A DNA stretch of 57,267 nt, taken from the NCBI GenBank assembly GCA_029907545.1, contig JARYLR010000007.1, positions 1 through 57,267 on the forward strand, written 5' to 3'. The position numbers were made by a program, and so were the translations under genes. The stretch's first letter is position 1, and each line of letters starts with the position of its first letter. The notes below the pieces were generated by a model, which made no database searches, had not been told where the DNA came from, and saw only the letters and a list, made by a program, of their open reading frames with translations. Positions 29,698 through 42,565 of this stretch are shown one piece after another. The stretch is from Candidatus Bathyarchaeota archaeon (lineage in GTDB: Archaea; Thermoproteota; Bathyarchaeia; Bathyarchaeales; Bathycorpusculaceae).

Positions 29698-30480
29698 CTA
29701 TTTACCTTTAAACGCTGGCTTGCGTTTTTCCGTGAAAGCTGCTACGCCCTCTTGCAGGTCTTCTGTAGATGCAACGACTCCGAAGCCCTCACGCTCCAGC
29801 GCTAGCGCCGCGTCTAGACTAATTTCTGCGCCCTTATTGATCAGCGCTTTAGCTACTTTAATAGCCACAGGGGCTTTCGCAGCCAGTTCCAGTGCAAGTT
29901 GGCGGGCTGTTTCTCTAAGCTTATCTGCGGGAACAACCATGTTGACTATGCCAAGCTGCTCAGCAGTCTTCGCGTCTACAAGTTTTCCGGTGAACACCAT
30001 CTCCTTAGCCTTTCCCGGGCCGACAAGTCTAGTAAGTCTCTGGGTTCCTCCCCATCCCGGGATTAGCCCTATGTTGATTTCGGTTTGCCCCATGCGGCTC
30101 GTTTCCGATGCGATGCGGAGGTCGCATGACATTGCAACTTCCAAGCCCCCTCCGAGCGCATAGCCGTTTAACGCGGCGATTACTGGTTTTTCTAAGTTCT
30201 CTAGTGAGCAGCAGAGTTTTTCTCCCATAAGCGAGAGTTCTCTGGCTTTAAGTGCGTTCATTCCTTTCATGGCTTTAATGTCTGCCCCTGCAGAGAACGC
30301 TTTTTCACCTGAACCGGTAAGTATGACGGCGCGCACGTTTTCATCTTGTTTTAGGTCATCTATCGCTTGGAGGACTTCTTCGATGACTTCCTTGCTGAAT
30401 GCGTTAAGTGCTTCCGGTCTGTTCAAGGTTATTGTTGCGATTTGGTCGCTTTTTTCGTAGATTATAACCTCGAAATTCAC
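29698..30480 (-). CDS. Enoyl-CoA hydratase/isomerase family protein
   Basis: The 260-aa crotonase-fold enzyme probably hydrates an enoyl-CoA. Conserved parts are ATITLNRPEALNAFS, the oxyanion loop FSAGADIKAM and GYALGGGLEVAMSCDLRIAS, with catalytic Glu in GGGLEVA and in TEINIGLIPGWGGTQRL. Both catalytic glutamates of the hydratase type are present, so a true hydratase is more likely than an isomerase. It lies 12 nt behind the dehydrogenase gene, so they are in one operon and likely act in sequence on the same acyl-CoA. Confidence 0.93.
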   Translation of the reverse strand: MNFEVIIYEKSDQIATITLNRPEALNAFSKEVIEEVLQAIDDLKQDENVRAVILTGSGEKAFSAGADIKAMKGMNALKARELSLMGEKLCCSLENLEKPVIAALNGYALGGGLEVAMSCDLRIASETSRMGQTEINIGLIPGWGGTQRLTRLVGPGKAKEMVFTGKLVDAKTAEQLGIVNMVVPADKLRETARQLALELAAKAPVAIKVAKALINKGAEISLDAALALEREGFGVVASTEDLQEGVAAFTEKRKPAFKGK

Positions 30481-30492
30481 ACGTTCTGCCTC

Positions 30493-31362
30493 CTATTTCT
30501 GCGTCCAGTCATAGTAGCCTTTCCCCGTCTTTCTTCCAAGAAGCTGCGCCTTAACCATCTGCTTCAGTCCCGGAGACGCGTGGAATTTAGGATCGATCTC
30601 CCTTGCAAGAACCTCGGCTATGGCTAGCGTTGTATCTGCTCCGATGTAGTCAAGAAGCATAAGCGGCCCCATAGGCCAGTTTAATCCGAGCTTGACGGCC
30701 TTGTCTATGTCGTCTCTGTCGGCTACTCCTTCCCAGTAAAGCGCTGCTGCCTCGTTTAGGGCAGGTATAAGTATGCGGTTCACGATGAAGCCTGGGCTGT
30801 CCTTTTTGACTAGGACTGTTTCTTTGCCTAGTTTGCGGGCGATGTCTGCGATTGTTTGGATTGTTTCGTCGCTGGTTTTGGCGCCTTTTATTATTTCCAC
30901 GAGCTTCATGAGCTGTGGGGGGTTGAAGAAGTGCATGCCGCAGACTTTTTCAGGTCGATTGGTTGCAGAAGCAAGCTCGGTTATGCTTACGGATGAGGTG
31001 TTTGAAGCAATTATAGCATGCGGTGGCGCCCAAGCATCAGCCTCTTTAAAAGTTGTTCTTTTTAATTCTACGTTTTCAGGTATAGCCTCGATAATTAGGT
31101 CGGCGTCTGAGACGGCCTCTCTAAGGTCGAGTGTCGTATGGATCCTCGCTAGAATTTCATTCATTTCTACCTCGGTCATCTGGCTTTTCTTCACAAATCG
31201 TTCAAGGCTGTCTTTAATCATGTTCATGCCGTTGTCTATGAAACGTCGCTCCACATCTCGCATGGTTACGTCGTATTTGCCAACTTGGGCTGCTACTTGA
31301 GTGATGCCGTGACCCATTAAGCCAGCGCCTAAGACTGTTATTTTTCTTATTTCCATCTTCAT
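30493..31362 (-). CDS. hbd: 3-hydroxyacyl-CoA dehydrogenase (3-hydroxybutyryl-CoA type)
   Basis: The 289-aa NAD(P)-dependent enzyme begins with the Rossmann motif VLGAGLMGHGITQVAA. It contains SNTSSVSITELA, MHFFNPPQLMKLVEII and KDSPGFIVNRILIPALNEAA, and ends RKTGKGYYDW. It oxidises (S)-3-hydroxyacyl-CoA or reduces 3-ketoacyl-CoA. The single-domain length fits the short-chain bacterial/archaeal Hbd. The ATG can be at 31362 or the next codon but one (MKMEIRK). It is in an operon with the enoyl-CoA hydratase and follows the acyl-CoA dehydrogenase gene by 86 nt. Confidence 0.94.
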   Translation of the reverse strand: MKMEIRKITVLGAGLMGHGITQVAAQVGKYDVTMRDVERRFIDNGMNMIKDSLERFVKKSQMTEVEMNEILARIHTTLDLREAVSDADLIIEAIPENVELKRTTFKEADAWAPPHAIIASNTSSVSITELASATNRPEKVCGMHFFNPPQLMKLVEIIKGAKTSDETIQTIADIARKLGKETVLVKKDSPGFIVNRILIPALNEAAALYWEGVADRDDIDKAVKLGLNWPMGPLMLLDYIGADTTLAIAEVLAREIDPKFHASPGLKQMVKAQLLGRKTGKGYYDWTQK

Positions 31363-31448
31363 TATTCACCTTTTGTTGTTGGAGGAGTATTTGCTGATGG
31401 TTCGATTTTAAACCTTTGCAGTAAGCATGTCGCTTTCGAATGGGCATC

Positions 31449-32987
31449 CTAAAAGATCAGGTCCCTGTCCAGCCAGTCAGGGAACCACCTGTATTTTTCT
31501 GGCCTCTCCGCCTTCTGCAGCCCGCTGTAGGTCGCCTTCACAAGTGCAATCAAGCCTTTAGAGTCTCGGTAAAGTTTGGCGAAGCCTTTCTTGTCAAGGT
31601 TTGTCAACATTTCATCAAGTTTGTCATCGGCAACGGTTTCAAGTCTTTCCTTCAAGTCTTCTCTGCTCATAAATAAGCCGGGGTTTACCATGTAGTCTTC
31701 TGCCAGCAGTTTGAGGATTTTGTCTTCGTTTGGCTCGAGTTTCGGAAGCTTTTCTCCGTATGAGACCGGAACGCCAAGTTTTTCGTGCAGCCTTCTTTGA
31801 GGCATTTTCAGATCTTTGCCTAGGGCCTTCAACCCGCCTCTGAAGATAACGAGCTTCATTATGTCGTTTGTGCCAGCGCCGATCTGGTTCACTTTAGCGT
31901 CGCGTAGGTAGCTTTCAACAGGGTAAAAGCGGGTCCAACCGTCTCCGCCCATGACCATGATTGCGTCGCTGATAAGCCGCTCATAGGTTTCTGAGGCGAA
32001 AAGCTTTGCAGTTGCCGCCTCAACCATTGCCTCTCGGTGCTCATCCAGCATCTTTGCCGCGTGATAGACAAGCAATCTCGAAGTCTTTAACCCGGCAAAC
32101 ATGTCTGCTATCTTGAACTGGTTTGACGGCAAATCAGCCGTCGGCTTGCCGAACTGCATGCGCCTCTGCGCGTATGCTACAGCATAGCGGATGGATTCGC
32201 GCATTGGTCCAAGCATTGCGGCGGAGTACACAACCCGCTCGAAGTTCAGACCTGCCACCATAACTTTCCAGCCGATGCCTTCTTCGCCGATTACGCTTTC
32301 AGCCGGAACTTTTGTGTTGTCAAAGCTTAAAATCCCGTTTGGAAGCCCGAACCAGCCTGAGAGCTCGTTGATCTTTTCAACCGAAAACCCTTGCGCACCC
32401 TTCTCAACGAGAAATGCGGTAAGATGCTGATATCTGCTCTTGTCTTCAGGTTTCTCGCTTGTTCTTGCATAAACGACATAGATATCAGCGAGTCCTGCGT
32501 TGGTGATAAACCGCTTCTTTCCATTAAGGACAAAGCAGTCCCCCTCTCGGCGAGCGGTCGTTTCGATTCCAGCCGCGTCTGAACCTACAAACGGCTCAGT
32601 AATGCAGACCGCTCCAACAACCTCGCCTTTCGCTATTCTCGGTAGCCACTTTTGCTTCTGAGCCTCAGTTCCAAATGTCAGAAGCTGCTCGACGCCGCCG
32701 AACATCGAAACCGCGTAAGCCTCAGACAGCCCTGAACATATCCTACTAAGCTCCTCAGCAACTATGGCGACGCCTGTTACTCCAGCTTCGATTCCGCCGT
32801 AGGCTTCAGGTATTGCTGCTCCAAACCATCCTTTGCGGGCGATCTCCTTAAGCATGTCCACGGGAAACTTTTTCGTCCAAAAAACTTCTTGACCTCTACC
32901 AAGGTTTTGGTCAGCAAAAATTCTTGTCTCTTCCATCAGCCGCTTCTGCTTGTCGTTCCACCATTCGAAAGGCTCCATAAAGTGCAC
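31449..32987 (-). CDS. Acyl-CoA dehydrogenase with C-terminal extension
   Basis: This flavoprotein oxidises acyl-CoA to enoyl-CoA. Residues 1-390 are a standard acyl-CoA dehydrogenase: CITEPFVGSDAAG, RYQHLTAFLVEKG, FERVVYSAAM, MVMGGDGWTRFYPVE. The place of the common catalytic Glu (YEGT in short/medium-chain enzymes) reads GAGT (A371). A glutamate is present at E250 (GLNFERVV), where isovaleryl- and long-chain-type enzymes carry their base. The total of 512 aa includes a roughly 120-residue tail that looks like a winged-helix or small helical domain. No ETF genes are nearby. ATG at 32978 is an alternative start. Confidence 0.92.
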   Translation of the reverse strand: MHFMEPFEWWNDKQKRLMEETRIFADQNLGRGQEVFWTKKFPVDMLKEIARKGWFGAAIPEAYGGIEAGVTGVAIVAEELSRICSGLSEAYAVSMFGGVEQLLTFGTEAQKQKWLPRIAKGEVVGAVCITEPFVGSDAAGIETTARREGDCFVLNGKKRFITNAGLADIYVVYARTSEKPEDKSRYQHLTAFLVEKGAQGFSVEKINELSGWFGLPNGILSFDNTKVPAESVIGEEGIGWKVMVAGLNFERVVYSAAMLGPMRESIRYAVAYAQRRMQFGKPTADLPSNQFKIADMFAGLKTSRLLVYHAAKMLDEHREAMVEAATAKLFASETYERLISDAIMVMGGDGWTRFYPVESYLRDAKVNQIGAGTNDIMKLVIFRGGLKALGKDLKMPQRRLHEKLGVPVSYGEKLPKLEPNEDKILKLLAEDYMVNPGLFMSREDLKERLETVADDKLDEMLTNLDKKGFAKLYRDSKGLIALVKATYSGLQKAERPEKYRWFPDWLDRDLIF

Positions 32988-33147: not shown

Positions 33148-34512
33148 ATGTGCCCTACACTACTTTATGGGAAGGCATGCTCTTTGAGGAAAACCATATT
33201 CAAGAAACTTGAAGCACAAGGACTTATCGCCAACTATAACCGCTTAAGAAAGAATCTGCCGCCTAAACTGCCTGACAGAGTTTTCATCTGGGACGAAACC
33301 CTAAAGGAAGCCACACAAACCCCTGCGGTGTTCCTAACGTATGTGGAAAAGGTGAAGCTTGCAAAAATGCTTGACGAAGTCGGCGTCTCCATTATAACCG
33401 TAGGCTTCCCCGTGCATTCAGAAGAAGAGAAAAGCATGGTGCGGAGGATCGCTAATGAAGGTTTTCAAAACGCAAGCATCGCTGCAGCAGCGCGCACCAT
33501 AAGAAGCGACATAGACGCCTGCCTCGAATGCGGAGTGAAAGAAATACCTATCTTCACGCCGTTCAACGAACTTAATCTTAAGTACGCGCTCAAAATGACT
33601 AAGGAACAGGCTCTTACAAAGACAGCGGAAACTGTAGAGTACGCGAAGAAACACGGCGTAACCGTGGACTTCGTTTTGGACGACGCCTCAAGAACCCCTC
33701 CAGACGATATTCTACGAATCCTCGCAACCGCCGTAAAAGCAGGAGCAGACCGAATTGTAATCGCCGACAGCGTAGGTTTCCTTCGACCGTTATCCATGCG
33801 CTACCTAATCTCGCATGTCAAAAAGGAGCTTGATGAACGCATCAAGAAGAAGAGTGTTCCACTTTCTGTCCACTGTCATAATGATTTCGGCTTGGCTACC
33901 GCGAACACGTTGGCAGCGGTGGAGGAAGGTGTAACCTACGTGCATACATGCATCGCTGGATTTGGCGAGCGCTCCGGCGGCGCACCTCTAGAAGAAGTCG
34001 TAGCAGCGCTGGAGCTGCTTTACGATGTAGACACAGGCATTGATCTAGACAAAACTCACAGACTTTCGCAGCTGGCGGAAAAAGCCTTCGCACTGCCCAT
34101 ACAGTTTCACAAACCCATAATCGGGGAGCACGCCTTCTCATACGAGATTGACGAGCAAACTAAGCCCATGCTGAAGATTCCCATACTAAATGAACCTTTC
34201 CCACCGGAAATTGTTGGAAGAGAAGCCCAATACTTTGTAGGCAAAACAGTTGGCAAACCGTTAATCCAAGAGCGCCTAATCGAGGCGCAGATCAAAGCGT
34301 CTCCAATGCAGGTAGACGAGATTGCTAGGAGACTGCGAGGAATGCACGAAAGCCTAGACAAAGGCGAAGCACAGATGACCTTCTACGAGATAAAGAAGCT
34401 TATGAAAGATCTGCGCAAGGGGTTAACAGAAGAAGAATTCTGGAAAATCGTGGAGCAGGTTACAAGGCAGAAGCCGAAGCTTCAGCCAAAAGAGCAGATA
34501 CTCCCTACTTAG
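33148..34512 (+). CDS. DRE-TIM metallolyase (HMG-CoA lyase / isopropylmalate synthase family)
   Basis: The 454-aa protein has the HMGL-like TIM barrel: VFIWDETLKEATQTP (in place of the usual RDGEQ), TVGFPVHS, VDFVLDDASRTPPD, metal-binding SVHCHNDFGLATAN and the GFGERSGGAPLEEVVAAL loop. A C-terminal part (about 330-454) carries ALPIQFHKPIIGEHAFSYE and ends Lys/Gln-rich, as in isopropylmalate or homocitrate synthase-like enzymes. The exact reaction (Claisen condensation or cleavage) is not clear. It is divergent from the acyl-CoA dehydrogenase, and its stop overlaps gctB by 8 bp. TATATTA near 33123 suggests a leaderless transcript. Confidence 0.85.
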   Translation: MCPTLLYGKACSLRKTIFKKLEAQGLIANYNRLRKNLPPKLPDRVFIWDETLKEATQTPAVFLTYVEKVKLAKMLDEVGVSIITVGFPVHSEEEKSMVRRIANEGFQNASIAAAARTIRSDIDACLECGVKEIPIFTPFNELNLKYALKMTKEQALTKTAETVEYAKKHGVTVDFVLDDASRTPPDDILRILATAVKAGADRIVIADSVGFLRPLSMRYLISHVKKELDERIKKKSVPLSVHCHNDFGLATANTLAAVEEGVTYVHTCIAGFGERSGGAPLEEVVAALELLYDVDTGIDLDKTHRLSQLAEKAFALPIQFHKPIIGEHAFSYEIDEQTKPMLKIPILNEPFPPEIVGREAQYFVGKTVGKPLIQERLIEAQIKASPMQVDEIARRLRGMHESLDKGEAQMTFYEIKKLMKDLRKGLTEEEFWKIVEQVTRQKPKLQPKEQILPT

Positions 34513-35296
34513 TCCTCGGAATGTAAATTCCGTTCGGATCTATCGCTCTGAGCAAGGCAAGCTCCTCAAGCGTCGGCGGCTCCGTTGAAGGCACATTCTT
34601 TGGGATAATAAGGTCGAAGCCTGAATTAGCCTTAACTTGCTGCACGGTCACACCGGGATGAAGCGTCGCCAGCCTTATCCGCTTCGTTTCAGGATCAAAA
34701 TCCATCTGGCAAAGATTGGTAACCACAAGCAATGGTCCACCTCCAAGAAGACCCGCTTTTTCACGAGCTCCCGGTCCGTCTAGAAATCCGGGGCTGGTTA
34801 AGTAGTCAAGCTTCTTTACCATTTTGCGTTTCTCATGTGTCATTATTATGACTATGTGCTTGGCTGAGGAAACTATGTCATTTCCCCCTCCGCTTCCAGG
34901 AAGCCTCACGGATGGTTTTTCGAAGTCTCCTATGTAGGAGGTGTTGATGTTTCCGTATTCGTCGATTTGTGCAGCACCAACGAAGCCTAGGTCAACGTGT
35001 CCTCCCTGCAGCATAACTCCCAGTGTTTCGATTAGCCCGATGGCTCCGGAGGCGCGGTAGCCTAGTCGAGAATCAGCTATGGAGAGAGCTATTTCTTTGG
35101 CGTTCGAGTCAATGAAGCCGGCTTCATAGACAATTTTGGCAGCTGGCGCGTGCGTCTTTTTGGCTAGCATAGCGGCTATCATGGGTAAGCCTGTTCCTAT
35201 AAACACGACTTGACCGTTTTTTATTTGGCGGGAGCCGCAGACTGCCATAAGTTCAAGGGTGTTGAATTCTTCGGGTTTTGCATGGTTCTTGGTCAT
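34505..35296 (-). CDS. gctB: Family I CoA-transferase subunit B (glutaconate/IpdB type)
   Basis: This 263-aa beta subunit has the family blocks VFIGTGLPMIAAMLAKKTHAP, VYEAGFID (the candidate catalytic Glu is in YEAG), HVDLGFVGAAQIDEYGNINT, RLPGSGGGNDIVSSAK, and LHPGVTVQQVKANSGFDLI. It transfers CoA between acids with the alpha subunit encoded next to it. The closest named relatives are glutaconate CoA-transferase and the IpdAB ring-opening enzymes. The true substrate cannot be read from the sequence. It is 16 nt downstream of gctA. Confidence 0.88.
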   Translation of the reverse strand: MTKNHAKPEEFNTLELMAVCGSRQIKNGQVVFIGTGLPMIAAMLAKKTHAPAAKIVYEAGFIDSNAKEIALSIADSRLGYRASGAIGLIETLGVMLQGGHVDLGFVGAAQIDEYGNINTSYIGDFEKPSVRLPGSGGGNDIVSSAKHIVIIMTHEKRKMVKKLDYLTSPGFLDGPGAREKAGLLGGGPLLVVTNLCQMDFDPETKRIRLATLHPGVTVQQVKANSGFDLIIPKNVPSTEPPTLEELALLRAIDPNGIYIPRTK

Positions 35297-35312
35297 ATCT
35301 CTTTTCTCCCTC

Positions 35313-36239
35313 CTAGTAAGGTAGAGGTTTTTTGGCTTTAAGCTGCATAAGTCTTTCCATGCCTACTTTTTTGAGGAATTCGGTGTGGCTGTCTGTGCTG
35401 GCTATGTATTCTTCGCAGTATTTTTGCCATCCCTCTTCGGTTTTGCACTGCTCATAATACCGTCGTATGTGTTCCATGTCGTAATCGTAATAGTTGTAAA
35501 CCATCATGGGATACGATCCCCAAGGGCATTCAACCACATGGCTAACGTAGATGTTGGGGATGACTGTTTGGTCTGGTTGCGCTCGGATGAATTCCGCGTC
35601 AACGATCTCCTCGGCGAGAACTATCACTTTTTTGCCTGCTCTTGCACCCTCTATGTCTTCGCCCTTTATTCCATCGATCTGCGCGTTTCCTTCCTTGTCC
35701 ACGCGTGAGACGTGCACTATGCTGAAGTCTGGGCGAACAGATGGAACAAGCACAATTTTCTCGCCAGTAAAAGGACATTCAATAAGCTCAGCTTTCTTGG
35801 GTTTAAACCTCTTTTTTGACAGGATATCGGTTCCCAGCATGCTTTTAAGAGGCATGAACGGCACGCCTAACGCTCCGCCGAGGAAACGCAGCGCCATCGC
35901 CAGATTCGTGTAGTCTTCAATCTCGATTGCACCTTCGCGGATTCTTCTCTGAATGTTAGGCGCCAAGCCTATTCCCTCTATGGCGTAGAACGCCATCTCG
36001 TACCGTGACACCACATAAGCGCCTGACAGTATGTCAATATCCATTTCAGAGCCGCATGTGTATATGGTTAGATTTCGCTTTTTCTGCCTGACAAGCTCGT
36101 GTGCAAAAGCCATTGGTGGACGCTGAAAGCCGAAGCCTCCCCAGAACAGGTGCGCGCCGTCTGAAACAAGCTTGACAGCCTCTTTCAAAGTAATCCTCTT
36201 ATCTTCTATGGTAGACTCGACCATGTCATGCACCAGCAA
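35313..36239 (-). CDS. gctA: Family I CoA-transferase subunit A (glutaconate/IpdA type)
   Basis: The 308-aa alpha subunit starts ITLKEAVKLVSDGAHLFWGGFGFQRPPMAF and includes YEMAFYAIEGIGLAPNIQRR, LGGALGVPFMPLKSMLGTDI, FSIVHVSRVDKEGNAQIDG and the tail YYEQCKTEEGWQKYCEEYI. This is the GctA/IpdA pattern. It pairs with the adjacent B subunit. The start at 36239 is TTG; an ATG at 36224 (MVESTIEDKR) is an alternative. The location beside fatty-acid-type enzymes suggests activation or exchange of a dicarboxylic or aromatic-derived acid. Confidence 0.88.
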   Translation of the reverse strand: MLVHDMVESTIEDKRITLKEAVKLVSDGAHLFWGGFGFQRPPMAFAHELVRQKKRNLTIYTCGSEMDIDILSGAYVVSRYEMAFYAIEGIGLAPNIQRRIREGAIEIEDYTNLAMALRFLGGALGVPFMPLKSMLGTDILSKKRFKPKKAELIECPFTGEKIVLVPSVRPDFSIVHVSRVDKEGNAQIDGIKGEDIEGARAGKKVIVLAEEIVDAEFIRAQPDQTVIPNIYVSHVVECPWGSYPMMVYNYYDYDMEHIRRYYEQCKTEEGWQKYCEEYIASTDSHTEFLKKVGMERLMQLKAKKPLPY

Positions 36240-37349: not shown

Positions 37350-39287
37350 TTAGCTGCGTCTGTTTCCCCTATCATCTGAGCCGAAGTACGCTGTTATTTT
37401 GGCGTTTTTTGAGATGTCCGCTTCTTTCTCCGCTTCCAGTTTGATGTGCATCGGCTCGAAGGTCTGGTTAAGCGCTGTAAGCAGGTTGCGAACATAGTCG
37501 GCTACGTTTATCTCTGCAAGATTAGGTGCAAGCTCCACCGGCTTCACAGTGAAGGTCTTGCCCTTGTATGGGAACGGCTTGACTTTGACAAAGGAAACGA
37601 TGTCTCCTCTCTTTAGGCGTCTGCCGGCGTCAATCAGCTGTAATGCACATTGGTAGGGCTGATGTGCTGTTTTCATATCAACTACTTTTTCATTGGGATC
37701 AAAATACAGTCTCACGGAATAAGTCAGGTCCTCAAGCTTGACTCTGCGGCTTCTGAGATCTTGAATGGCTTTGGCGACAACTTGTCTGATCCTCTGCTTA
37801 GCTTGCTCATATTCTTCTCTGTTTTTTACTGAGGATAGTTCTATGATGCATTGCTGAAACACTTTGGTCACATACCCAGAGGTGTTAGACTTTGCTGCGG
37901 TAACGCCTTTGATGTCTGGGGTTCCATCAAGCATGATGCCAAAGTACGCTTTTTTTGCCTTAGGCAACACGCAGAGGCTGTAGCGTTTGTCAACAGCCAA
38001 GTCAAGATGAAATCTTTCTCTTACCGCGCTGATCAGCCACTTAACTTGCTCGTCATTTGCGTTGTCAAGGAAAAGCGAGTCAGTATCCCCATACAGAGGG
38101 CGCAAGCCTTTTTCTTCAGCCATTTTCCAGCTTTCCCGCAAAACATAGCGCCCGTACCCAGTTATCGCTTCAGCTAAAGGGGGGCACGCAACCCCACGAA
38201 TCCGCACAGTAACGCCGTAACTTGAGACAAGAAACAGTTTCAGAAGCTTTGCCGCTGCACTTGCGGTTTCCCGCTCCTCTTCTCCCAGAGAGCTGTCCTT
38301 TGATGCTGGCTTGAATACTTTAATGCGGAGCTCCTTCAACGCACCGACTAGTACAGAGTAGAAACCTCTGCGCAGAGTGCACACATGGCTGTCAACGTCA
38401 GGTATCCTATTGTCCCGGCATTTGGGATGAGAGCAGTCAACAGTCTCGTAAGATAGGTTGAAGCTGTCAATGCAGCTGGGATACAGGCTCTCAAAATCAC
38501 ACACCACAGTGTTGAAGTAGATTCCTGCTTTAGGCGCAACTGTAAGTGCGCCGATGACTTGATGAGGTTGCCTTCCTCTGAGCAGTTCTTCAGCAGTTGG
38601 AATGAGAACATTGTTTCTTCTCAGATGTGTGTGAATCATGGAGCGTATCCAGTCACTTACTCGCCTGCTCGCAAGAGCCTCGGTCACCGGAATATTTGCC
38701 ACTCTTGCCAACATCCATGCAGCATAAACTCTGCGGGGATCAGCATCATGGTCTCCGAGAAGTGGAGGATCAAGTTTGGGAACAGGCTGATTTAGCAGAT
38801 TAAACCAGTAAGCTATTTGAGCATACTTCAGCGGATCTCTGGACTGCATCTCGCCAAAGGCATTATCAAACCTAGCTTTCGCAGCCTCGCGGGTTTGCAG
38901 GAGAGGTTTTAGATCACCCTCATCATGCAGTGCGCCAAAAGCTAGACCCTTATCATAAACATAGGATTTCACAACATCTATCTCTCTTTCCCAGCACTGG
39001 CTAAATCTGCCAGCAGCTTTCAAAGCAACTGCTGGATTCGGCCAGTAAACCTTCCCTAAAACTCTTTTCTCATTCGTAAACAGGTCGGTTTTCTGGGTTA
39101 TCTGAATGTCGCCGCTGAAATGTCGAATGGTCTCCTTGTCCTTCTCAGAAAGAGGATAAACAACGAAGAAGTAAGGCCTATAGTCCTTATCGATAACCTC
39201 GGTTACGTGGCTGCCACTGTCAACAAACCTTAGTTTCACTGCGTTGGCCTCGGTAAGCAATGCGTCAAGCAGAAATAGGTCTGTCAA
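37350..39287 (-). CDS. polB: B-family DNA polymerase lacking the exonuclease domain
   Basis: The 645-aa polymerase keeps all polymerase motifs: motif A DFESLYPSCI (D264), motif B KLFLVSSYG (K350, with V at the usual Asn) and motif C YGDTDSLF (D401, D403). A likely zinc cluster (C285, C290, C303) follows motif A, as in crenarchaeal PolB. The N-terminal domain (about 1-115) is present, but the DxE/ND/YxxxD exonuclease region is absent: sequence passes straight to the helical segment before motif A, so no proofreading. The C-terminus NAKITAYF resembles a PCNA-binding box with N for Q. The TTG start lies 2 nt after the lipS1-like stop. Confidence 0.9.
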   Translation of the reverse strand: MTDLFLLDALLTEANAVKLRFVDSGSHVTEVIDKDYRPYFFVVYPLSEKDKETIRHFSGDIQITQKTDLFTNEKRVLGKVYWPNPAVALKAAGRFSQCWEREIDVVKSYVYDKGLAFGALHDEGDLKPLLQTREAAKARFDNAFGEMQSRDPLKYAQIAYWFNLLNQPVPKLDPPLLGDHDADPRRVYAAWMLARVANIPVTEALASRRVSDWIRSMIHTHLRRNNVLIPTAEELLRGRQPHQVIGALTVAPKAGIYFNTVVCDFESLYPSCIDSFNLSYETVDCSHPKCRDNRIPDVDSHVCTLRRGFYSVLVGALKELRIKVFKPASKDSSLGEEERETASAAAKLLKLFLVSSYGVTVRIRGVACPPLAEAITGYGRYVLRESWKMAEEKGLRPLYGDTDSLFLDNANDEQVKWLISAVRERFHLDLAVDKRYSLCVLPKAKKAYFGIMLDGTPDIKGVTAAKSNTSGYVTKVFQQCIIELSSVKNREEYEQAKQRIRQVVAKAIQDLRSRRVKLEDLTYSVRLYFDPNEKVVDMKTAHQPYQCALQLIDAGRRLKRGDIVSFVKVKPFPYKGKTFTVKPVELAPNLAEINVADYVRNLLTALNQTFEPMHIKLEAEKEADISKNAKITAYFGSDDRGNRRS

Positions 39288-39289
39288 AC

Positions 39290-40327
39290 CTATTCCCCGC
39301 TGATCCTCAATTCCAGCTTGATGTCCGCAATTTCCGCTTCTGACAACGGTCTTGGATAGTTATAGAACGGGCCACTAGGCTTCTCATTGTAGTATGGACG
39401 ATTGCAGTTTGGGCACCCAGACGTGAGGAAAGGCTCGCCTGTCTTAATGATGCGGTCAAGCCTTTCTTTTTCCACGCCGAAATCTGCTAGATTGCCTGCT
39501 TTCTCGAACTGCATGGTTTCAAATCTTGCAATTTTGTGCAATATCAAGTATCTAGCCAACTGAATCCCTCTATACCGTTGAAGCGGCGGCTGACCAGCTT
39601 TCTCCAGTGCAGTGCCGCGGATAGGAGTAAATGCAAAAAGCGCAGGCTGGACACCCATGTCTACGCATCTCTGAATAGCCTTAAACATTTCTTTCTCGGT
39701 CTCGCCAAGCCCAACAATCAAATGTGTGCTCACCTTGTTTTCTCCAAGGGTCTCTGCGGCTTTGCGCAAAAGCTTAAGTTGATTCCTCCATCTGTAAGGG
39801 CCTCCAGCAGATCTTCCCTTAACTTTGTTGAATACCTCTTCGGTTGCGGCATCTAAGGGGATTCCTATTCTTTCCGCGCCAGCGTTGACTAAACGCATCA
39901 CGTTTTCTATGCTCAGTGGCTGACAAGAGACAGAGATTGGCGCCGCAACTTGTTTGTGGATTGTTCTGACAAGGCTTTCAACATCAGCGATTGCTTCTGG
40001 ATAGTGAAGTGTTTGTATGCAGACACGTTTTATTGTTCCGTCAGCGGCAGCTCTTTGAAGCTGACTTGTTACTTGGTCAATGGGGAAGGAAGGCCACGAT
40101 ATTCTTGAGAGCATGTCTTCTCTGCTGGAGCTTTCTCTGGATTGGGGGCAGAAACCGCAATTTGCGTTGCACTTGCCTTGCTTATGGGTCATCAAATAGG
40201 CAGTTGTCGGTGCAGCATCAAGTTTGCCTTTCACCAAACCTATCGCTACCGCCGTCCCAAGTGAAACTCGGACAAACTCCGGCGCAATGTTGCCGGAATG
40301 TTTTCTCAGATTCACATTTATCAGCAT
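39290..40327 (-). CDS. lipS1: Radical SAM protein, LipS1-like lipoyl synthase subunit
   Basis: The protein has 345 aa. The radical SAM motif is C53-x3-C57-x2-C60 (KCNANCGFCPQSRES), in a biotin-synthase-like barrel with CQPLSIENVMRLVNAGAERIG. Near the end, C305/C308 in SGCPNCNRPYYNE and the following GPFYNYP match the C-terminal auxiliary site of archaeal LipS1. That protein, with LipS2, inserts sulfur into octanoyl chains in place of LipA. The pair is split here by the 450-bp PPOX gene and is divergent from it. I am fairly sure of the family, less so of the role. Confidence 0.75.
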   Translation of the reverse strand: MLINVNLRKHSGNIAPEFVRVSLGTAVAIGLVKGKLDAAPTTAYLMTHKQGKCNANCGFCPQSRESSSREDMLSRISWPSFPIDQVTSQLQRAAADGTIKRVCIQTLHYPEAIADVESLVRTIHKQVAAPISVSCQPLSIENVMRLVNAGAERIGIPLDAATEEVFNKVKGRSAGGPYRWRNQLKLLRKAAETLGENKVSTHLIVGLGETEKEMFKAIQRCVDMGVQPALFAFTPIRGTALEKAGQPPLQRYRGIQLARYLILHKIARFETMQFEKAGNLADFGVEKERLDRIIKTGEPFLTSGCPNCNRPYYNEKPSGPFYNYPRPLSEAEIADIKLELRISGE

Positions 40328-40443
40328 GTAATGTCAGATTCAGCGAATTAAAAGTCTTGCCGCGCCACTTCAGGCGAGATTATGCTTAAATAGCGTGCTG
40401 AGTCAAATGCCTTGTCCAACATTAGCGGGGTAAGGCATAGCCT

Positions 40444-40893
40444 ATGGCAACTAGCGAGATGAATTTAGAGGAAATTGAACAGTTTCTCACGTGCAGCAGA
40501 GTCGGCAGAATCGCGGTGTCGCTTGAAACCAGCCCCTACATTGTCCCAGTAGGGTACGTTTACACTGGCGGCGTCATAGCTTTTCATACCTGCATGAAAG
40601 GGTTGAAAGTAGAGACTATCAGAAGAAATCCCGCTGTTTGCTTCGAGGTAGATGAATGCGCCTCTGACACGTCTTGGTTCAAAAGCGTCATAATCTTCGG
40701 AAAAGCAGCCATCATTGATGAAAGAAGTAAGATGATTCCCTACCTGCAAAAACTCATCGACAAATATCGTATCCCCACAGAGTTTGATGATTACATGAGT
40801 AAAAGGGGCAGAGATAAGGAGAAGGAGCTTCAGGCTGTGAGGATATGCATCATAACACCTGAGAAGATTACAGGGCGAAAACGGTGCGTATGA
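40444..40893 (+). CDS. PPOX-like FMN-binding split-barrel protein
   Basis: The 149-aa protein belongs to the pyridoxamine 5'-phosphate oxidase-like superfamily. It starts with the helix MNLEEIEQFLTCSRVGRIAV, followed by YIVPVGYVYTGGVIAFHT, KVETIRRNPAVCFEVDECA, then SVIIFGKAAII and ICIITPEKITGR. These are the FMN-binding barrel elements of NimA-like and general stress proteins. The substrate is unknown. It overlaps no gene but leaves only 4 nt before the LipS2-like gene, so they are probably co-transcribed. Confidence 0.88.
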   Translation: MATSEMNLEEIEQFLTCSRVGRIAVSLETSPYIVPVGYVYTGGVIAFHTCMKGLKVETIRRNPAVCFEVDECASDTSWFKSVIIFGKAAIIDERSKMIPYLQKLIDKYRIPTEFDDYMSKRGRDKEKELQAVRICIITPEKITGRKRCV

Positions 40894-40897
40894 CCTG

Positions 40898-41929
40898 TTG
40901 AATTCGGAAACCCTTAACCGAGATATTAAGGCTGTTTTCAGCGCAGAGAACCTAGGAGAACTAGAGCGATGGCTCGACGCTGCTTGGAAGGCCAAGCAAG
41001 CGAATTTCGGCAATAAAATACGCTTCTATGCACCAAGCTTCACACACTACAAGACCAAGCAGTTCTGCGGCTCCTCTACAGATTTTCCAACAATTTCGGT
41101 AACAGGCAAAGGTTGTGCACTGAAATGTAAGCACTGCGGCGGCCTAGTTCTTGAAACGATGCATCCGGCAACCACTTCAAAAGAGCTGTTTGATCTGTGC
41201 GTTGAGCTGAAAGGAAAAGGGGCGTCAGGCTGTCTTATCAGCGGGGGATGTCAGCCAGATGGCTCTGTTCCACTCGGCAAGTTCGCAGAAGCCATAGCTA
41301 GGATCAAGCGTGAACTGGGACTGATGGTCTTTGTTCATACCGGCATCATTGATTTGGGGACGGCTACTGTATTGAAGAATGCGGGAGTTGACGCCGCGCT
41401 GATAGATGTCATAGGCTCCGACGCCACGATCAGGGAAGTTTACAACATGAAGATTACGGTGGACAGTTATGCGGAATCCTTGCGGATACTGCATGAAGTG
41501 GGCATGGTGTTTGTGCCCCACGTAATTGTCGGGCTTCACCACGGAGTGCTGAAAGAAGAAATACGTGCATTAAAGATAATAGCGAGATACTCTCCTTCCG
41601 CGCTTGTCATAATTGCCTTCATGCCGATATACGGGACAGAGATGCAGTACACCAAGCCGCCAAGTCCGCTAGATATAGCGAAGGTCATGGTTGCCGCGAG
41701 ATTAATGTTTCCTAAAACCCCTCTGGTTCTTGGGTGCATGCGACCGAAAGGAGCGTACAGAAAAGAAACAGACATGCTCGCCATAAGGGCAGGGGTTAAC
41801 GCCATAGCCTTCCCTGCTGAAGAAGCAATAGAACTCGCAGGGGAAAAGAAATGTAAATGCTCTTTTTCATCGTCCTGCTGCGCGCAGATCTACTTTGATG
41901 CCAGTTCCCTAGCGGTGCCCTCTGTATGA
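40898..41929 (+). CDS. lipS2: Radical SAM protein, LipS2-like lipoyl synthase subunit
   Basis: The 343-aa protein begins with a short helical leader, then FYAPSFTHYKTKQF and FPTISVTGKGCALKCKHCGG, the radical SAM cluster C73/C77/C80. Further blocks are SGCLISGGCQPDGSVPL, FVHTGIID, VPHVIVGLHHG and LGCMRPKG. A Cys-rich tail (KCKCSFSSSCC) could hold a second cluster. This arrangement matches the partner of LipS1 in the two-component lipoyl synthase described from Thermococcus. The start is TTG at 40898, 4 nt after the PPOX stop. Confidence 0.75.
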   Translation: MNSETLNRDIKAVFSAENLGELERWLDAAWKAKQANFGNKIRFYAPSFTHYKTKQFCGSSTDFPTISVTGKGCALKCKHCGGLVLETMHPATTSKELFDLCVELKGKGASGCLISGGCQPDGSVPLGKFAEAIARIKRELGLMVFVHTGIIDLGTATVLKNAGVDAALIDVIGSDATIREVYNMKITVDSYAESLRILHEVGMVFVPHVIVGLHHGVLKEEIRALKIIARYSPSALVIIAFMPIYGTEMQYTKPPSPLDIAKVMVAARLMFPKTPLVLGCMRPKGAYRKETDMLAIRAGVNAIAFPAEEAIELAGEKKCKCSFSSSCCAQIYFDASSLAVPSV

Positions 41930-42145
41930 GAACATGAAGACGCTCATTACCTCTCTTTTCAGCTCCTCATACTGGTGGCTAAGCCTGTGAGCGTCTTTTC
42001 TGGACATGCCTTGGCGAACCAGTTCTTTTTCGAAGGCTCTGCGGGTTTTTCGAACCGTCCAACCGAAAGTAAGCCACAAAGCAAACATAGTGAAAAGAAG
42101 CCGAAGAGTATGAAGCATTGCCACGATGAGGTTGCCGAGTTTCAT
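41909..42145 (-). CDS. Small membrane protein with RQGMS helical module
   Basis: The protein has 78 aa. An N-terminal hydrophobic stretch (about 5-32) anchors it. It is followed by KELVRQGMSRKDAHRLSHQY, which resembles KELKEAGMSEDTAVKMTENY in the next gene (42179). The shared F/K-E-L-x3-GMS-x3-A-x5-Y pattern suggests related helical modules. Its 3' end overlaps the convergent LipS2-like gene by 21 bp. No function is known. Confidence 0.6.
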   Translation of the reverse strand: MKLGNLIVAMLHTLRLLFTMFALWLTFGWTVRKTRRAFEKELVRQGMSRKDAHRLSHQYEELKREVMSVFMFSYRGHR

Positions 42146-42178: not shown

Positions 42179-42565
42179 CTAGTCTTCGTCTTCCTCGTCT
42201 CTTTCCCTGTGCTTTTCATGCAGTTCGCGCTTCAGGGTTTTCCGAATTTCCTCACCTATCTCTTCGCCCCTGAACTCGCCTCGCCCGTTCATGCTTCCCT
42301 TCATCACGTCTTTCAGACTTGAGAAGACCGACATGTAGTTCTCAGTCATCTTGACTGCTGTGTCCTCAGACATGCCTGCTTCCTTCAGCTCCTTGTAAAA
42401 AGCTGCTGCAGCCTTGCCCATATCCCTGCCAGCCTCTTCAGAGAAGACGCTTCCCATTATGGCTTTTATCAACGCCGGCAACTCTCTAGAAAGGGTTCCG
42501 AAGATTTCTCTGATCTCTTCAGCATCGTCTTCCCATTCTTTTCTCTCTCTTTTTTCCTGACTCAT
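42179..42565 (-). CDS. Charged helical protein of unknown function
   Basis: The 128-aa protein is almost all helical and highly charged. The N-terminus (SQEKRERKEWEDDAEEIREI) and the C-terminal tail (LHEKHRERDEEDED) flank a central module with FYKELKEAGMSEDTAVKMT, shared with the 78-aa membrane protein. No catalytic motif is seen. It is in a compact minus-strand cluster with three other small genes (42567, 42853 and 41909), so they probably act together. Confidence 0.65.
   Translation of the reverse strand: MSQEKRERKEWEDDAEEIREIFGTLSRELPALIKAIMGSVFSEEAGRDMGKAAAAFYKELKEAGMSEDTAVKMTENYMSVFSSLKDVMKGSMNGRGEFRGEEIGEEIRKTLKRELHEKHRERDEEDED

Follow-up and report, generated by a model that had tools for sequence, protein, structure and literature searches.

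Analysis of a 57,267-nucleotide stretch of DNA from Candidatus Bathyarchaeota archaeon (the window, by which we mean this whole stretch) uncovered a gene for a 645 aa B-family DNA polymerase (P0001; 37350–39287, minus strand). Going by sequence comparisons, it represents something new, namely loss of the exonuclease within the PolB1 lineage with both aspartates of motif C intact. Archaeal B-family polymerases have been divided into the classes PolB1–3 and B4–B10 (PMC7544198, available text). Archaeal PolB proteins without an exonuclease are not new in themselves, because PolB2/Dpo2 is already one: Sulfolobus Dpo2 has no recognizable exonuclease domain (PMC7390963), and PolB2 is described in the available text of PMC8764526 as experimentally active, an exonuclease-free extender of mismatches and lesion-containing ends. 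An exonuclease-less PolB1-like clade is not described in the available portions of the archaeal PolB1–3 literature (PMC4104785, PMC7544198, PMC8764526, PMC11791011), and the main text of open-licence articles on Bathyarchaeia polymerases holds nothing on such a clade.

The polymerase gene is an open reading frame with a TTG start codon, located 2 nt past the stop codon of an upstream gene for a LipS2-type lipoyl synthase subunit (39290–40327, minus strand; NF053743, E 6e-111). The latter is a neighbor, adjacent in several related genomes, and no part of the enzyme; lying on the same strand 2 nt apart, the two genes are probably cotranscribed. The sole Pfam match in the polymerase is PF00136 (DNA_pol_B; residues 207–612, E 2e-31). 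Sequence searches recovered Sulfolobus PolB1 (1s5j) as the closest solved relative, with a strong score over residues 193–642 and a weak match between residues 35–145 and its N-terminal domain. An AlphaFold model derived from a 17-row alignment (mean pLDDT 87.3) likewise returned 1s5j as the top structural match among the chains compared (Z 37.4, rmsd 2.8 Å, 517 residues aligned). These comparisons divide the protein into three parts, all encoded on the minus strand: a counterpart of the PolB1 N-terminal domain (residues 1–111; 38955–39287), based on the weak match to 1s5j 50–166, profile alignment and the model; a helical connector (residues 112–205; 38673–38954) with no strand of more than two residues in the model; and the palm, fingers and thumb (residues 206–621; 37425–38672). 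The last 26 residues are modeled with low confidence.

A profile alignment of 17 members of the family (A1) against five full-length Bathyarchaeia PolB1 proteins (A2; probability 100, 606 columns) places the pre-ExoI helix AQIAYWFNLLNQPVPKL over PolB1 EYVERWARLLEYPAAKF. A clean gap then opens before ExoI (RRVALDIE) and closes past the ExoIII region (YCxxDAEIT; YCLRDAEITYELTSFND), leaving a linker of ~17 residues (172–188 within the connector). The missing stretch is the entire RNase-H-like core from ExoI to ExoIII, which occupies ~200 aa in PolB1. The exonuclease profile PF03104 gave no match at E<=1 in the five members scanned; among the positive controls, PolB1 scored 9e-20 and 6e-20 and PolB3 2e-20, with a weak 7.5e-4 for a decayed PolB2. 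The model has no beta-sheet in residues 122–250, only isolated bridges of 1–2 residues. Alignment and model thus show that the exonuclease core was deleted rather than mutated. The initial annotation had the N-terminal domain running into the palm without a proofreading domain, and had found no exonuclease motif; both points are borne out, with the ~17-residue linker in between, and the model contains no exonuclease fold. This structural reading holds across the whole clade, whereas the contrast drawn there with "inactive PolB paralogues" is outdated by the work on PolB2 (PMC8764526, available text; PMC7390963).

The polymerase active site is conserved throughout. D264, Y269, K350, V354, D401 and D403 are invariant over 45 distinct members, which upholds the earlier observations that the three aspartates are intact and that valine replaces the usual asparagine of motif B. 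Motif A (CDFESLYPSC, residues 263–272; 38472–38501, minus strand) carries the catalytic D264 and the steric gate Y269, and motif C (YGDTDSL, residues 399–405; 38073–38093, minus strand) the catalytic D401 and D403. The catalytic aspartates of the PolB1 motifs A and C (DxxSLYPS, YGDTDS) are thus kept in all 45, whereas its ExoI/II/III domain and its KxxxNxxYG form of motif B are absent from the exonuclease-less clade. Motif B (KLFLVSSYGV, residues 350–359; 38211–38240, minus strand) has V354 in 45/45 members at a position where asparagine is near-universal and occurs in every row of full-length PolB1 and PolB3 compared. The valine is also a motif-B trait of PolB2, being found in almost all of those examined, from Bathyarchaeia through the short Sulfolobus-like forms of 541–591 aa, with cysteine in two rows. 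In all eight Hermodarchaeota-like members (L057, L058, L239, L245–L249) the motif-B tyrosine is replaced by glycine, giving VS[SC]GG; the two full sequences among them, L057 and L058, also have a shortened N-terminal domain.

Two trees were used to place the clade. In the first, built on the polymerase region with 62 rows and with derived PolB2 proteins, the exonuclease-less proteins are monophyletic (100/100) and join PolB1 (99/99). The second included 18 PolB2 proteins, basal ones among them, and left out the motif-B columns; it supported the exonuclease-less clade at 100/99, PolB1 at 96/87 and the union of both at 100/99. The exonuclease-less clade is sister to all full-length PolB1, and membership in PolB2 was rejected in either tree when the two clades were forced together (p-AU 0.016 and 0.0018). 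By these sequence-based placements the polymerase is neither a PolB2 nor a PolB3, and its clade is an old, conserved branch on the PolB1 side of the archaeal family, although long branches make its depth less certain than clade membership. Since the tree joining both clades is rejected, the motif-B valines of the exonuclease-less clade and PolB2 are convergent. Within PolB2, the basal sequence L238 has an intact YGDTDS and a motif B with valine (KMILVSSYGYSG), by which the valine may have preceded the loss of the motif-C aspartate. Separately, PolB2 of one Bathyarchaeia genus is split at motif B (KWILVT|CFG) within a single frame of 1283–1654 aa (G075:C17:17199–21008, G072:C46:20611–25506 and others), an interruption whose sequence looks like an active-site intein.

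At a threshold of E<=1e-120, members were found in 52 of 256 Bathyarchaeia genomes, spanning several families and orders; the remaining 204 have no member at this threshold, so the gene is dispensable. Among 398 genomes sampled from the phylum, strong full-length matches all fall within Bathyarchaeia, and the matches listed outside the class are full-length PolB1 aligned from residue ~190 onward. In the Asgard phylum of the Hermodarchaeota records L057 and L058, a ~660-aa member occurs in 8 of 227 genomes. Members are ~640–660 aa long. A Wukongarchaeum match (L124) was rejected as an ordinary PolB1 fragment with the motif-B asparagine, and a viral or phage origin was set aside after phages and IMG/VR gave weak partial matches only. 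Two exonuclease-less copies are present in each of the genomes G109 (C55, C64) and G172 (C39, C41). The gene is under purifying selection, with dN/dS of 0.08–0.19 over five close pairs. A few members have in-frame stops (one TAA in L010 of G033, two TGA in L046 of G199), which may reflect decay, sequencing error or recoding.

Among near relatives, 19 of 21 carriers also encode a ~900-aa PolB1, a count that includes the window genome, whose PolB1 is in two contig-end pieces (C33/C44); G041 and G054, in which the PolB1 is missing, are both draft MAGs. With full-length PolB1 alongside, the exonuclease-less enzyme is not the replicase. The window genome further encodes a PolB3 (L001), one Y-family polymerase and the primase large subunit; PolB2 was not found in it at the threshold applied. 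The gene does not appear to be a stand-in for a missing Y-family polymerase: 21 of 27 good-quality carriers have one, vs 54 of 93 non-carriers (Fisher p 0.07, with genomes taken regardless of relatedness). Nor does it appear to substitute for PolB2, which is present in 15 of the 27 carriers and 33 of the 93 non-carriers.

The gene neighborhood is dominated by lipoate metabolism. LipS1 and LipS2 produce the lipoyl cofactor (PMC9585515, available text), and LipS2 lies directly upstream of the polymerase in most genomes inspected from its own family and in some of family f6. A lipoate ligase adjoins the polymerase gene in family f7, while LipS1, LipS2, polymerase and ligase all fall within one stretch in a single genome (L166). 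A lipoate-cofactor locus (39290–41929 in the window; L159–L177) thus hosts the polymerase across divergent Bathyarchaeia, with an LplA-type ligase in other families. This adjacency probably represents an inherited position, with no mechanistic link apparent. Two small genes lacking Pfam matches (41909–42145 and 42179–42565, minus strand) adjoin LipS1 and are kept in several relatives (clusters c15 and c9). Elsewhere in the window is a beta-oxidation-like acyl-CoA cluster (29698–32987; enoyl-CoA hydratase, 3-hydroxyacyl-CoA dehydrogenase and acyl-CoA dehydrogenase), after which CoA-transferase genes come at 34505–36239. The neighbors inspected include no DNA-repair gene, and those scanned include no primase gene and no Pfam match to a RadA-like protein, although the partners encoded in the PolB2 operon, an inactivated RadA and PPB2, could escape such a scan, since Pfam would miss a degraded RadA and the small helical PPB2. 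No RNA elements were found near the polymerase gene, and a defence system was discounted, the only match being a spurious homing-endonuclease.

On balance, comparative evidence leads us to favor an accessory polymerase that arose from the PolB1 lineage, is active and does not proofread. Its work beside the replicative PolB1 would be to bypass lesions, to extend mismatched or lesion-containing ends, or to carry out repair synthesis. A translesion or repair role is best supported because the lack of an exonuclease and the motif-B Asn→Val change also mark PolB2, a known translesion extender. The retained activity and relaxed rNTP discrimination of yeast Pol epsilon N828V (PMC10639073) speak for this reading as well, by analogy. 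With no exonuclease site, a frayed or mispaired primer end would have nowhere to shuttle, and the altered "sensor" in the fingers, judging from relatives, would check the nucleotide sugar less tightly; the expected result is elongation from distorted primer ends with tolerance of imperfect nucleotides. The enzyme may be brought to PCNA by its C-terminal PIP-box-like NAKITAYF (residues 630–637; 37377–37400, minus strand), after which PolB1 would resume. The PCNA-box-like character proposed for this segment in the initial annotation is plausible: similar hydrophobic-aromatic ends occur family-wide, most members having a short motif (KISDWF and TLADFI are examples), and the Hermodarchaeota members QxRLxDY/F (for instance, QKRLIDY), at varying distance from the fold. 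These tails suggest PCNA recruitment. Against an accessory repair role stand the absence of an adjacent repair gene or RadA-like partner, the patchy distribution (204 of 256 without it), and a presence that tracks neither PolB2 absence nor Y-family polymerase absence. A more specific proposal, which we advance tentatively, is that the clade lost both fidelity guards, the exonuclease and the ribonucleotide sensor, while keeping both catalytic aspartates, and that its normal job is to make ribonucleotide-rich DNA or to synthesize from damaged ends.

The motif-B valine also bears on a related idea, a repair polymerase for dNTP-poor, slow-growing cells in which loss of the sensor mainly lets ribonucleotides be inserted as gaps are filled, lesions being secondary; we regard this as unlikely, though worth weighing. 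By the spacing K-x3-N-x2-Y-G, as read from the motif sequence, V354 would correspond to N828 of yeast Pol epsilon, the residue that Parkash et al. named a ribonucleotide sensor (PMC10639073). Their N828V enzyme retains polymerase activity, at the level of the wild type, with greater tolerance and incorporation of NTPs, and the CAN1 mutation rate of the mutant is 3.8-fold higher (PMC10639073). V354 would then be a natural counterpart of N828V, which chiefly makes the enzyme tolerate rNTPs (PMC10639073), and the steric gate Y269 is retained as in N828V; the comparison is an analogy with a eukaryotic enzyme that still has its exonuclease. However, PolB2 has the same valine and is yet a documented lesion extender (PMC8764526, available text), and nothing found here connects the gene with ribonucleotide repair or with end joining.

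That the protein is a weak or inactive polymerase retained as a structural or regulatory factor seems improbable. The near-universality of the motif-B asparagine in the B family and the glycine for the motif-B tyrosine in 8/8 Hermodarchaeota members would agree with it, but D264, D401, D403, Y269 and K350 are invariant, the N828V change leaves Pol epsilon with wild-type activity (PMC10639073), and PolB2 with the same valine is robustly active (PMC8764526, available text). We give a low likelihood to a Pol alpha-like primer extender, exonuclease-free and elongating PriSL RNA primers ahead of the replicase: the absent exonuclease, the predicted ribonucleotide tolerance and the primase large subunit in the genome fit such an enzyme, but presence in 52 of 256 genomes is too patchy for core replication and no primase gene is adjacent. 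A decaying pseudogene, mis-assembly or mobile-element polymerase can practically be dismissed, being already contradicted by the conservation data: in spite of the in-frame stops in L010 and L046, the same architecture recurs in dozens of independent MAGs from two phyla, including several single-contig chromosomes, dN/dS is low, and phage and viral contig collections hold no comparable protein.

Set against known polymerases, the presumed accessory enzyme most resembles PolB1 (Sulfolobus Dpo1, 1s5j), its best sequence and structure match and sister clade, with the same layout of N-terminal domain, palm, fingers and thumb. PolB1 has an active exonuclease, the motif-B asparagine and a replicase role, whereas the window protein, a paralogue alongside it, has no exonuclease core, has the valine and is one residue shorter after motif B. 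With PolB2 (Sulfolobus Dpo2) it shares the lost exonuclease function, the Asn→Val change and the status of an accessory paralogue beside replicative PolBs. However, the PolB2 exonuclease decayed or was lost separately in a distinct clade (AU p 0.0018), and its motif C is usually HxxxD with a single aspartate, whereas the exonuclease-less clade keeps both aspartates of YGDTDS (45 members). Yeast Pol epsilon N828V has the identical motif-B change with the steric-gate tyrosine intact; it is engineered and has its exonuclease, whereas the valine of the exonuclease-less clade occurs naturally and is fixed. Pol zeta (Rev3) of eukaryotes is likewise a B-family lesion-bypass extender with no working exonuclease (PMC8764526, PMC11791011, available text), but it is a multi-subunit enzyme in which the exonuclease fold survives in inactivated form, while the window protein has no such fold.

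A small exonuclease-free archaeal polymerase might have technical use. As an old clade in its own right beside PolB1, and one that shed the entire proofreading domain, the exonuclease-less family would constitute a new branch of the archaeal B-family polymerases. Moreover, two lineages seem to share one active-site edit upon abandoning proofreading, the change of Asn to Val, and this match with PolB2 makes it directly testable whether a single residue sets extender or ribonucleotide-tolerant behavior in B-family polymerases.
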